From a virus: a stretch of 38,105 bases of DNA. The translations under genes were made by a program, and so were the position numbers. The notes under the pieces were generated by a model that had not been told where the DNA came from, searched no databases, and was given only the letters and a program-made list of their open reading frames with translations. Location of the stretch: positions 1 through 38,105 of the IMG/VR virus record IMGVR_UViG_3300048903_000270; one strand, given 5' to 3'. Shown piece after piece: positions 1 to 3,443 of this stretch (position 1 is the first letter of the stretch; every line of letters begins with the position of its first letter).

Positions 1-249
1 CAAGAAGTTTTGGCACAACGCGGTAACTCGCATGGCCACATTACTATTCAAGCTGCTTTGTCGCAAGAATTTAAAGCAGCTGCAATGGCTTCTCCTAACT
101 GGGATAAGTTGGAACCGTATCAAAAGGAATGTATTGAGATGATTCTGCATAAAGTGTCTCGAGCATTGACTGGCGACTACAAAGAACCAGACCATTACAA
201 AGACATTGCTGGCTACTCAACTCTTGTTGAACGGGAGCTGACTAAGTGA
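1..249 (+). CDS. DUF6378-like phage protein, 5'-truncated
   Basis: The frame is open from the first base, so the true start lies upstream; the TTG at 10 is only an internal candidate. The visible 82 residues contain the pattern SHGH, NW, KVSRALTGD, DHYKDIAGYSTL, which I recall as the DUF6378 family of small phage proteins whose biochemical role is not known. The gene overlaps the next start by three bases (GTGA at 246-249), which points to translational coupling with the nuclease. The family assignment is from remembered pattern, not a search. Confidence 0.6.
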   Translation, partial: QEVLAQRGNSHGHITIQAALSQEFKAAAMASPNWDKLEPYQKECIEMILHKVSRALTGDYKEPDHYKDIAGYSTLVERELTK

Positions 250-1139
250 CCTATACTGCCACTCAAAAAGCCATCGAGGACTTTCGTGAACTCCACCAGG
301 CAGTCAGCCTCGAAAAGAAAGAGCTCCCTTTCCGCCCCCATCTTGGCCTTAGCGGAATCGGTGCGGAATGCCATCGGAAAATCTGGCTCGACTTTCGATG
401 GGCAACTCGAAAGAAAGTTCCTGCCAATGTTGTCGGTCTCTTTGATCGTGGGCATGGTGAAGAGCCTCGGTTCGTTGAATCACTTCGCGCAATCGGAGTC
501 ACCGTTCAGGACGTGCACCCTGAAACAGGGAAACAATTCAAATGTTCCTATGCAAACGGCCATGTCGGAGGAAGTACTGACGGATTTGGCGTCCATTTTC
601 CAGACTACGCAGAACACTGGGCGCTGCTGGAGTTCAAGACCCACAGCCTGAAGTCTTTCGAGGACCTGTGCAAAAAAGGCGTTCAACTTTCCAAGCCAGT
701 TCATTACGTTCAAGTTCAAACGTACATGAAATCGTTTGGCGTCAAGCGTTGCTTATATATGGCTGTTTGCAAGAATGACGATCGGCTTTACACTGAGTGG
801 ATTGATATCGACGAAGACTACGCCCAGGAAAAGATTGACCTGGCAGTCGACATCGTTTACAACCCAGTCGTGCCTGACCGAATTGCGCTTATGTCTAGCG
901 ACTACCGTTGCCGTAACTGCGACCATCGACCAGTTTGCTGGAATAAAACAGGGTCTGAGCCCGATCGCAACTGCAGGACTTGTACCCATTCCTATCCTAA
1001 CCAAGTTGGGACTTGGGGTTGCAAGTTCAATGGTGTGCAAGAAGACTTGGATTGCTTCAACCCGTGCTCAGCTTACGAAAAGCATGAAGTCTTCATCCCG
1101 TTGAAAGACATCACTATGTCTCTGGAACTTGGTAAATAA
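246..1139 (+). CDS. Cas4/RecB-type PD-(D/E)XK nuclease
   Basis: This 297-residue protein has the PD-(D/E)XK nuclease signature: D112 in GGSTDGF, E129 and K131 in LLEFKTHS, and the helper QVQTY at 156-160. The C-terminal third is cysteine-rich (YRCRNC and RNCRTC pairs), as in Fe-S or zinc-binding Cas4-like and phage exonucleases. It probably processes DNA ends in phage recombination or host DNA breakdown. The start is GTG at 246, preceded by GGGAG and overlapping the upstream stop. The next gene begins one base before its end, so the first genes form one operon. The nuclease fold is fairly certain; substrate polarity is not visible. Confidence 0.8.
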   Translation: MTYTATQKAIEDFRELHQAVSLEKKELPFRPHLGLSGIGAECHRKIWLDFRWATRKKVPANVVGLFDRGHGEEPRFVESLRAIGVTVQDVHPETGKQFKCSYANGHVGGSTDGFGVHFPDYAEHWALLEFKTHSLKSFEDLCKKGVQLSKPVHYVQVQTYMKSFGVKRCLYMAVCKNDDRLYTEWIDIDEDYAQEKIDLAVDIVYNPVVPDRIALMSSDYRCRNCDHRPVCWNKTGSEPDRNCRTCTHSYPNQVGTWGCKFNGVQEDLDCFNPCSAYEKHEVFIPLKDITMSLELGK

Positions 1140-1684
1140 TGGCTGTTGTGAAAACCTGCAAACATTGCGGAAATACAAGTGATAAAGCTCCATGGAAAGT
1201 AAATAATGGAGTAGCAGTTGGGCTTGTATGTCGTAGATGCGCAAGTGACCAAGGAGCCGTTTACGCAGCAAAAATGCGAGCAACTCCTGAAGGAAAAGCT
1301 GCAAGTGATGCTGCAAGCAATAAGTATTATGCGTCTGCCAAAGGCGCAGAAAACTATGCTCGCAAGAAAGCTGCGCCTGACGCTAAAGAACGATTTACAA
1401 AATATTCTTTAGACTGGGCAAAACGCCACCCTGGCAAAGCTCTTGCAAAAGTAAGAAAGCGCGATTTGGCTAAATTACAAAGAGTTCCGCTTTGGGCAAA
1501 TGACGCCGCTATAAAGGAAATATATGTTGATTGTCCACCCGGAATGCAGGTTGACCACATTATTCCATTGCAAGGTGAACTTGTAAGCGGGTTGCACTGT
1601 GAGGCAAATTTACAGTATTTGACAGCAGCAGAAAACGCCTCTAAAGGAAATTCTTTTAACCCTGAAACTTTTGTAGGTCCATAA
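1139..1684 (+). CDS. HNH homing-type endonuclease
   Basis: 181 residues. An N-terminal CxxC...CxxC zinc module (C7, C10, C31, C34) is followed by a lysine- and alanine-rich linker and a C-terminal HNH nuclease (VDHIIPL at 138-144, NLQ at 157-159, then N166, K169, N171). This is the layout of free-standing phage homing endonucleases. Its stop overlaps the helicase start (TAATG at 1682-1686), and the helicase is interrupted only about 120 nt further on. Free-standing homing enzymes often cut the uninterrupted form of the adjacent gene, so the helicase P-loop is its likely target. The third-position composition looks more A/T-rich than in its neighbours, which fits recent acquisition. Confidence 0.85.
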   Translation: MAVVKTCKHCGNTSDKAPWKVNNGVAVGLVCRRCASDQGAVYAAKMRATPEGKAASDAASNKYYASAKGAENYARKKAAPDAKERFTKYSLDWAKRHPGKALAKVRKRDLAKLQRVPLWANDAAIKEIYVDCPPGMQVDHIIPLQGELVSGLHCEANLQYLTAAENASKGNSFNPETFVGP

Positions 1685-1812
1685 TGTCTAAAGCAACTTT
1701 TATTCCTCGCGACTATCAACATGCGGCAATCAATTATCTTTGGCAGGCTTTCGCAGAAAGAAGCGGACATATTAATCCATTGATGGTTTTACCAACGGGG
1801 ACAGGTTCTTGA
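1684..1812 (+). CDS. SF2 helicase, N-terminal exon-like fragment
   Basis: An ATG at 1684 overlaps the HNH stop and opens a 42-codon frame too short for usual ORF callers. It encodes the N-terminus of an SF2 DEAD/DEAH helicase: RDYQ (the Q-tip style motif) then MVLPTGTGS, which is the start of a Walker A box (PTGTGK[ST]) that fails after the second glycine. The codons GGT, TCT are followed at once by TGA (1810-1812), where a Lys and Ser/Thr should be. The rest of the helicase resumes in another frame near 1848-1866. Alone this peptide cannot function. It is either joined to the downstream part by splicing or ribosome bypass, or the gene is broken. Confidence 0.75.
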   Translation: MSKATFIPRDYQHAAINYLWQAFAERSGHINPLMVLPTGTGS

Positions 1813-1858
1813 GCCCCCTTCCATTATAGAAGGGGGCAACGACTAGCAAGGCTAGTCT
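1807..1858 (+). other. Hairpin element interrupting helicase P-loop; group I intron-like relic or bypass gap
   Basis: Between PTGTG and the resumed helicase frame lie about 41-56 nt with two perfect hairpins: GCCCCCTTC (1813-1821) with GAAGGGGGC (1829-1837), 9 bp, and GACTAGC (1841-1847) with GCTAGTC (1851-1857), 7 bp, loop AAG. The TGA stop abuts the first stem. From memory, TTGAGCC, GCAACGACTA and TAGTCTG resemble conserved blocks of phage group IA introns (the P6 to P7 region and the P7 3' strand). P1-P5 and P8 are absent, so this is not a complete intron. All three forward frames are closed: TGA at 1810, TAG at 1827 and TAG at 1844. Edges are approximate. Confidence 0.6.
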
Positions 1859-1865
1859 GCTTGGT

Positions 1866-3443
1866 ATGATATGCCGAGACGTTTATGCAAACTGGCCCGG
1901 AACTGGCCGCATTATTGTGCTGACCCACAGCAAGGAATTGGTCGAGCAAGACGCCAAGTCTATTAAATGGGTATGGTCGAATGCCTCAGTTTCTGTTTAC
2001 TCAGCCGGTCTCAAACAAAAAGATATTACCGGCCGCATTATTGTAGCCGGTATTCAGTCCTTTGCAAATATTGCCCATGAAGTTGATGCCCCGTCAATTG
2101 TACTGATTGACGAGGCGCACATGATTCCAGCCAATGACGAAACATTGTATAATCAGACATTGGCAATTTTGCGTGAGAAAAACCCAAAGCTTGTTTGCAT
2201 TGGGCTAACCGCAACACCTTGGCGAATGAAAGGTGGACACCTGCTTAACTGTGGGCTGTTTAACCATATGGCTTGCGACTTTGGTAGTCGAGAGACTTTT
2301 GTCCGCTTCGTTACTGAAGGCTATTTGGCTCGCCTTATCACCAAGGCAACAGACGCTGGTTTTGACCTGTCGGAAGTTGGTACAGTTGCCGGTGATTATA
2401 ACCAAAAGCAGTTGGGTATTGCTGTTCAAGCAAATGGCGCAACACAGGCCTGCGTCAGGGAGATGATTGAAAAGGGGCAAAGCCGAAAGAAGTGGCTGAT
2501 CTTTGCTGCATCAGTGCAGCATGCCGAACTCATTGCTGAATTGCTAAATGACTCGGGTATTCGGACTGGAGTAGTGCACTCCAAGATGAAAGGTAACCGT
2601 GACGACGTTATCAAGGAATTCAAAACTGGTAACATGCGTGCCCTTGTAAATATGGGTGTTCTCACAACTGGCTTTGACTTTCCACAAATTGACCTAATTG
2701 CATTGATGCGGCCAACCAAGTCCATAAGCCTACACATTCAAATTCTTGGCCGTGGTACTCGCCCAGTTTTTGCGCCTGGTTACGATGTCACAACAATTGC
2801 AGGACGATTGTCAGCTATTGCTGCTGGTAGTAAACCAGATGGCTGTTTGGTACTAGACTTTGCCGCCAACATTATGCGGCTCGGCCCAATCAATGACCCT
2901 ATCCTTCCTGATAAGAAAAAGAAAAGAGGTGGTGATGCTCCTCCAATGAAAGTATGCCCAGATTGCAAAAGTCAATGGGCATCTCGAGTTGCTGTTTGTG
3001 ATGATTGCGGCCATGTCTTTCCACCTCCAGCCCTTGAAATTTCTGCAGGCGCTTCTGAGCAAGCAGCTATTGCCGGTATTGGAGAAGATGCGCCTTCTGC
3101 TTTGGATATTCGAGACCTGGAAGTCACTGCGGTCAACTATGCTCTTTATCAAAAACCTGGAAAACCGCCTTGCATCCGAGCTGTCTACCACTGTGGGTTA
3201 ATTAACTACAACGGTTGGCTTTGCTTTGAGCATAAGGGTTCAGCACAAGGGCTTGCTCGTAAATGGTGGAAGGCCAATGTTGGGAATGATAGCTACCCGC
3301 AGACTTGTGAGGAATTTCTTATCCGAAAAGCTGAGCTTCAAAAGCCTGTAGCCATTCGTGTTTGGATGAAAAAGCCATACCCAGAAATTCTCACTCCACT
3401 TTACCAAGATGATGAGATTAACTTCTATGACTCACAAGCCTAA
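1866..3443 (+). CDS. SF2 DEAH helicase, C-terminal 525 residues lacking Walker A
   Basis: The protein begins at helicase motif Ia: VLTHSKELVEQ at about 18-28. It then has DEAH at 82-85, LTATP (motif III), TGFDFPQ (motif V) and QILGRGTR (motif VI), followed by a C4 zinc module (CPDCKS...CDDCGH) and a C-terminal extension. It would unwind or remodel DNA in replication or repair. The frame is open back to 1830, so KASLLG precedes the ATG. A clean join of GGT (1804-1806) to AAG (1848-1850) would give GTGKAS, close to a Walker A box but with Ala for Ser/Thr. Translation from ATG 1866 alone would give an ATPase-dead protein. Helicase identity is very likely; expression mode is unknown. Confidence 0.85.
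   Translation: MICRDVYANWPGTGRIIVLTHSKELVEQDAKSIKWVWSNASVSVYSAGLKQKDITGRIIVAGIQSFANIAHEVDAPSIVLIDEAHMIPANDETLYNQTLAILREKNPKLVCIGLTATPWRMKGGHLLNCGLFNHMACDFGSRETFVRFVTEGYLARLITKATDAGFDLSEVGTVAGDYNQKQLGIAVQANGATQACVREMIEKGQSRKKWLIFAASVQHAELIAELLNDSGIRTGVVHSKMKGNRDDVIKEFKTGNMRALVNMGVLTTGFDFPQIDLIALMRPTKSISLHIQILGRGTRPVFAPGYDVTTIAGRLSAIAAGSKPDGCLVLDFAANIMRLGPINDPILPDKKKKRGGDAPPMKVCPDCKSQWASRVAVCDDCGHVFPPPALEISAGASEQAAIAGIGEDAPSALDIRDLEVTAVNYALYQKPGKPPCIRAVYHCGLINYNGWLCFEHKGSAQGLARKWWKANVGNDSYPQTCEEFLIRKAELQKPVAIRVWMKKPYPEILTPLYQDDEINFYDSQA

Follow-up and report, generated by a model that had tools for sequence, protein, structure and literature searches.

Among bacteriophage genes, T4 gene 60 is, to our knowledge, nearly unique in having a gap that is bypassed. 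The mobA gene of T4 is located upstream of gene 60, and gene 60 has a 50-nt gap after Gly 46; reviews describe relatives of T4 that are without both mobA and the gap and raise the possibility of the gap being a degenerate intron that protects against the nuclease (PMC3014915, PMC5009743). A further system is the collaborative homing of cyanophage S-PM2, in which the free-standing nuclease F-CphI is paired with a group I intron in psbA; the F-CphI (DHHRN) motif consists of DHDH flanked by CXXC pairs together with a conserved Arg (PMC6083498).

We analyzed a phage locus that shares properties with both systems. The window, the whole stretch of DNA studied, comprises 38,105 nt (positions 1 to 38,105 of IMG/VR record IMGVR_UViG_3300048903_000270), and the features of the locus are listed in Table 1. 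As for T4 mobA and gene 60, an HNH gene is located upstream, an insert of similar size follows a Gly near codon 41 to 46, a stop codon and a hairpin are present, and the arrangement is absent in relatives. Unlike in T4, the interrupted sequence encodes the P-loop of a helicase, the stop is positioned one codon later, and the HNH motif is intact, whereas MobA is annotated as defective. As for F-CphI and the psbA intron, a free-standing nuclease is found beside a gene interrupted at the presumed cut site, the insert carries no nuclease of its own, and PHROGs assigns the nuclease to an "endonuclease VII" type; in contrast to the psbA intron, the insert here is only 41 nt and is not an intron.

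Table 1. Features of the exonuclease, nuclease, and helicase region, in window coordinates.
Feature	Position	Strand	Basis or remark
Cas4-domain exonuclease gene	246..1139	+	phrog_1990, E 3e-82; helicase comes directly next in relatives
Putative free-standing HNH nuclease gene, 181 aa	1139..1684	+	PHROG endonuclease VII, E 3e-8; conserved motif; predicted fold
Helicase 5' part, 41 native codons to LPTGTG (GGT 1804-1806), then TCT and TGA 1810-1812	1684..1812	+	frames; L002 match
41-nt insert at the boundary of the P-loop Gly and Lys codons	1807..1847	+	not in L002, L003, L005
Hairpin 1, 9-bp stem 1813-1821/1829-1837, loop CATTATA	1813..1837	+	starts on the base right after TGA
AACGACTA block	1838..1845	+	also R (P7 5') in all three group I introns of T4
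Hairpin 2, 7-bp stem 1841-1847/1851-1857, loop AAG 1848-1850	1841..1857	+	end of insert pairs with resumed coding sequence
Helicase 3' part, KASLLGMICRDV... to stop	1848..3443	+	L002 identity; phrog_16, E 9e-75; Helicase_C, E 2e-17

The split helicase gene and its insert

Profile matches place the helicase in the phrog_16 family. Its frame 1 reads ...MVLPTGTGS and ends at the TGA, the other two forward frames are closed by TAG at 1827-1829 and TAG at 1844-1846, and no frame spans the gap. The helicase picks up again in the frame of 1830 (KGATTSKASLLGMICRDV), and the first internal ATG of the 3' part is at 1866. Three IMG/VR relatives (L002, L003, and L005), with helicases that are 97% (over 525 aa of the 3' part), 76%, and 78% identical in protein sequence, respectively, encode GTGKASLLGM without a break, which fixes the insert as exactly 41 nt. 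An earlier reading of the sequence alone (hereafter the sequence-only reading) had described LPTGTG followed by Ser, TGA, and resumption in another frame with all three frames closed, and the frame analysis bears this out. Its join of GGT to AAG at 1848, giving GTGKAS, agrees with the three relatives, and the alignment to uninterrupted homologues that it had proposed places the junction between these two codons. The stop directly against a 9-bp stem and the two hairpins that it had noted are likewise present, with the stem beginning on the first base after TGA. The Walker A motif of this helicase clade (window 1848-1856 and L002, L003, and L005) is GKA, where other members of the phrog_16-type family have GKS/T; a full GKS/T therefore is not rebuildable at the junction.

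The insert is GC-rich and forms two perfect hairpins. The region 1795-1875 folds at -32.4 kcal/mol (z -3.0), and 0 of 200 shuffles were equally stable. When the insert letters were shuffled 200,000 times with composition kept and the real exon behind, a stem of at least 9 bp arose in 0.11% of cases and both hairpins never did.

The same interrupted allele is present in contig G001/L001, with 100% identity to the window in all stretches compared. G001 is 65,012 nt long and is probably circular and complete because its ends overlap by 127 nt. The window sequence continues straight across the cut point of G001 and passes through this overlap, so two assemblies with different ends agree, with the proviso that they may derive from related samples of one phage population. 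Only one genotype is known to carry the interrupted allele: a second insert allele, sought by the 3' end or the hairpin in viral contigs and phage records, was found in the same phage only, and among 118 viral contigs matching the pattern of GTG then TTGAGCC none was recognized as this helicase P-loop. An origin from an insertion sequence is unlikely, the junctions having no visible target-site duplication.

The search of 80 related helicase loci for a short P-loop insert found none, and one intein was encountered. This apparent intein lies inside the P-loop of a related helicase (L167:1825-4446, IMGVR 3300031162_001305, MPTG^CHEAG...HHN^SGKS), a position that indicates use of the P-loop spot by homing elements. 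Both loci thus have the same motif occupied by a mobile element, in helicases of one family, but the L167 element is an in-frame intein that is removed at the protein level. Another related helicase, that of Vibrio phage vB_VpaS_BP15 (L150, 1363-3081), is annotated in separate pieces.

The upstream HNH gene

TAATG overlaps join the HNH gene to the exonuclease gene on its 5' side and to the helicase gene on its 3' side. An alignment of 28 HNH relatives revealed an invariant VDH...G...N...N..K motif, with D139, H140, N157, and N166 invariant in all 28 sequences. The predicted model has a beta-beta-alpha end (strands 136-140 and 158-162, helix 163-169). Foldseek returned weak matches to solved HNH domains in the PDB (E 0.3-1) and better ones to predicted phage proteins, several of them named HNH (E down to about 7e-7 to 2e-8); a Pfam search gave no family match. 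The conserved motif and the predicted fold together mark the 1139-1684 product as a putative HNH nuclease with an intact motif. The F-CphI (DHHRN) family pattern is absent, as the nuclease reads VDHIIPLQGELVSGLHC and VDHIIPL...GLHCEANLQ with no DHDH and no Arg there.

Relatives of the HNH gene are common in phages (75 records), where the gene just downstream can be DpdA, DNA polymerase, or another helicase. Members of the same family in phages renfri, FritzHoffmann, PaMx25, and Vi II-E1 also lie upstream of DNA-metabolism genes, but in these phages the neighboring gene is annotated as one intact ORF with no insert. In Salmonella phage renfri, a relative of the HNH gene takes up the identical place ahead of an intact helicase that belongs to the phrog_16-type family as well, from which we conclude that protection does not generally require an insert; in Erwinia phage SOI901 this place is empty. 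A survey of 80 viral HNH relatives for split genes yielded no convincing small insert; a 219-nt gap at L313 was rejected as an in-frame extra stretch in a structural-type protein with no Rfam match. Among 102 viral and genome HNH loci, with renfri as the positive control, no adjacent phrog_16-type helicase was found except for two marginal matches. The phage studied here also encodes a paralogue of the same HNH family (L008:3099-3662, 45% identical) upstream of a Sak4-like P-loop ATPase; this Sak4-linked paralogue is missing from G002, and a tRNA-Met (CAT) gene is located downstream of the Sak4-like gene at L008:4488-4565.

Comparison with relatives

The HNH gene and the insert occur together in the window and in G001. 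Both are absent from G002 and G003, L002 has the exonuclease followed by the helicase with nothing between, and the L005 helicase is also uninterrupted. Nucleotide differences from L002 amount to 67 of 491 positions in the exonuclease gene, 34 of 123 in the helicase 5' part, 4 of 60 just after the insert, and 234 of 1596 over the whole helicase 3' part. The 5' part is thus more diverged than either flank (Fisher p about 4e-4), by about twofold. Beyond the insert, three differences fall at 1856-1859 and the next is at 1898; the identical stretch of 1860-1897 fits the edge of a conversion tract. The 5' part differs from residues 1 to 41 of L002 by 24 synonymous and 5 nonsynonymous changes (four of the five at codons 2 to 5), and the corresponding counts for the 3' part are 210 and 14. 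Nearly every change in the 5' part is silent, so the helicase of the donor was under selection. This pattern, with the border of divergence at the insert, indicates that the nuclease gene, the 5' coding part, and the insert probably came in as one block. The likeness to the T4 mobA and gene 60 cassette claimed in the sequence-only reading is upheld by these comparisons, namely by relatives that are without both elements, by the divergence of the block itself, and by its border at the insert. Neither helicase part has decayed, which would be equally expected for a recent, disabling insertion and would also allow a tolerated one.

Fate of the helicase product

We consider the chance about even that the helicase is inactivated and yields no normal full-length product, the insert being either a scar left by repair or a selfish element that protects; this estimate includes the variants in which the phage can do without the helicase or, in mixed infection, is complemented. 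Such a reading is consistent with the failure of every known decoding route to yield the native protein and with the uninterrupted genes of the nearest relatives, and a recent event would be expected to leave both parts undecayed. A GC-rich insert with two perfect hairpins placed exactly at a codon boundary would nevertheless be an odd scar, and the same allele is found in two assemblies with no loss of either coding part. The suggestion of a dead gene in the sequence-only reading survives, as undecayed parts permit a recent or a tolerated insertion. We regard as doubtful, but as a genuine candidate, the production of full helicase by exact skipping or excision of the 41 nt between the Gly and Lys codons without the signals of T4 gene 60, which would make the locus either a second bypass cassette found in nature, one that follows other rules, or a very small element that is excised from the RNA and is carried with the HNH gene. 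In its bypass form, the ribosome would halt at the Gly codon GGT, slide over the hairpins, and resume at AAG to give intact GTGKASLL. The position of the insert after Gly codon 41 (Gly 46 in T4; PMC3014915), its length of 41 nt compared with 50, the hairpin just 3' of the stop, the HNH gene just upstream, a run rich in G (1832-1836) ahead of the resume site, and the absence of decay in either coding part all speak for this reading, yet we judge it unlikely. A stem-loop is present at the take-off site as in T4-type bypass, but the stop is not next to the take-off codon, with one sense codon intervening (GGT TCT TGA). The exact product requires that tRNA-Gly land on AGC, a first-base mismatch to GGT; the only cognate 41-nt hop, ACA to ACT, keeps the length but gives PTGTSKAS, with Ser in place of the Gly before Lys, and a hop from GGT to GGT at 1863 loses the Lys. 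The nascent peptide is also unchanged, in that 36 of the 41 residues before the gap match uninterrupted L002, with four of the five changes at the extreme N terminus, so there is no sign that a special nascent peptide has evolved. The T4-type form of bypass put forward earlier is weakened by the late stop, the lack of a cognate landing that would give the native protein, and a peptide that is essentially the same as in gap-free relatives.

Removal of the insert at the RNA level is, taken overall, quite improbable. Splicing by a group I intron that is reduced or assisted in trans, which we rate as extremely unlikely, has in its favor that AACGACTA, which is able to pair with TAGTC, is identical to the R element in each of the three T4 introns, that the helicase 5' coding part ends in T, and that the 50-nt gap of T4 has itself been put forward as a degenerate group I intron (PMC5009743). 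Set against this, P3, P4-P6, and P8 cannot fit in 41 nt, and the insert ends in C rather than in a terminal G, with a shift of the 3' site to a G failing to restore the protein. An Rfam group I search gave no match in the region (E up to 5), nor did RF00028 match the complete phage genome at E up to 1, whereas the same search recovered the T4 introns at E 2e-29, 5e-10, and 1e-8. A working group I intron, as entertained earlier, is ruled out by the 41-nt length and the absence of an Rfam match. Of the group IA core blocks listed in the sequence-only reading, AACGACTA stands out, with a chance of about 6e-4 in a random 41-mer (not corrected for the choice of motif), and it leaves a relic intron origin possible; TTGAGCC and TAGTCTG do not stand out, occurring 11 and 7 times in the window, and the TAGTCTG at the insert is helicase coding sequence. 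Unconventional splicing of the XBP1/HAC1 type, with an endonuclease cutting at the hairpins and the phage RtcB ligase joining the ends, is very unlikely. The phage does encode RtcB (E 1e-130), and hairpin 2 has the 3' junction at the base of its loop, but no candidate RNA endonuclease was identified and no strong loop holds the 5' junction. The ligase gene is at G001:C1:21699-22844 (minus strand); G002 and G003 encode one too, and RtcB does not track the insert because it is equally present in these insert-free relatives. An assembly error or a collapsed longer insert is conceivable for a metagenome assembly and is nonetheless highly unlikely, given that two assemblies with different ends are identical letter for letter and that, aligned to L002, the flanks meet exactly at a codon boundary. 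Other or unknown routes to the helicase outcome are, together, improbable.

Discussion

We favor, as somewhat probable, the explanation that the locus is a homing cassette in which an HNH gene stands beside its presumed target helicase and the 41-nt insert occupies the presumed cut site. The comparison of nucleotide sequences with relatives makes this explanation well supported. It is also favored by the relatives of the HNH gene that precede DNA-metabolism genes, by the slot that is filled in renfri and empty in SOI901, by the Sak4-linked paralogue, and by the intein in the P-loop of L167. The HNH nuclease would cut insert-free helicase alleles in the P-loop region, and repair of the break would then copy in the nuclease gene, the helicase 5' coding part, and the insert together. 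By analogy with T4 and F-CphI, the insert may prevent the phage from cutting its own DNA, and we propose that the cassette operates in the manner of T4 mobA and gene 60 and of F-CphI collaborative homing. Against the homing cassette, the 181-aa nuclease gene and the 41-nt insert have been found together once and could in principle represent two independent events. The intact helicase beside a nuclease of this type in renfri, the restriction of the allele to a single genotype, and the failure to find a further insert around 80 viral HNH relatives also count against it.

The locus probably represents the second example of an arrangement that is very rare. As far as we know, a single case underlies the view that the gene 60 gap originated as the partner of a homing nuclease. 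A second combination of nuclease and small insert, in another gene and another phage lineage, would mean that such cassettes recur, and it would offer a clean test of the signals needed for bypass. If instead the helicase is dead, the locus would show how far a homing element can damage a constrained replication gene and yet spread.
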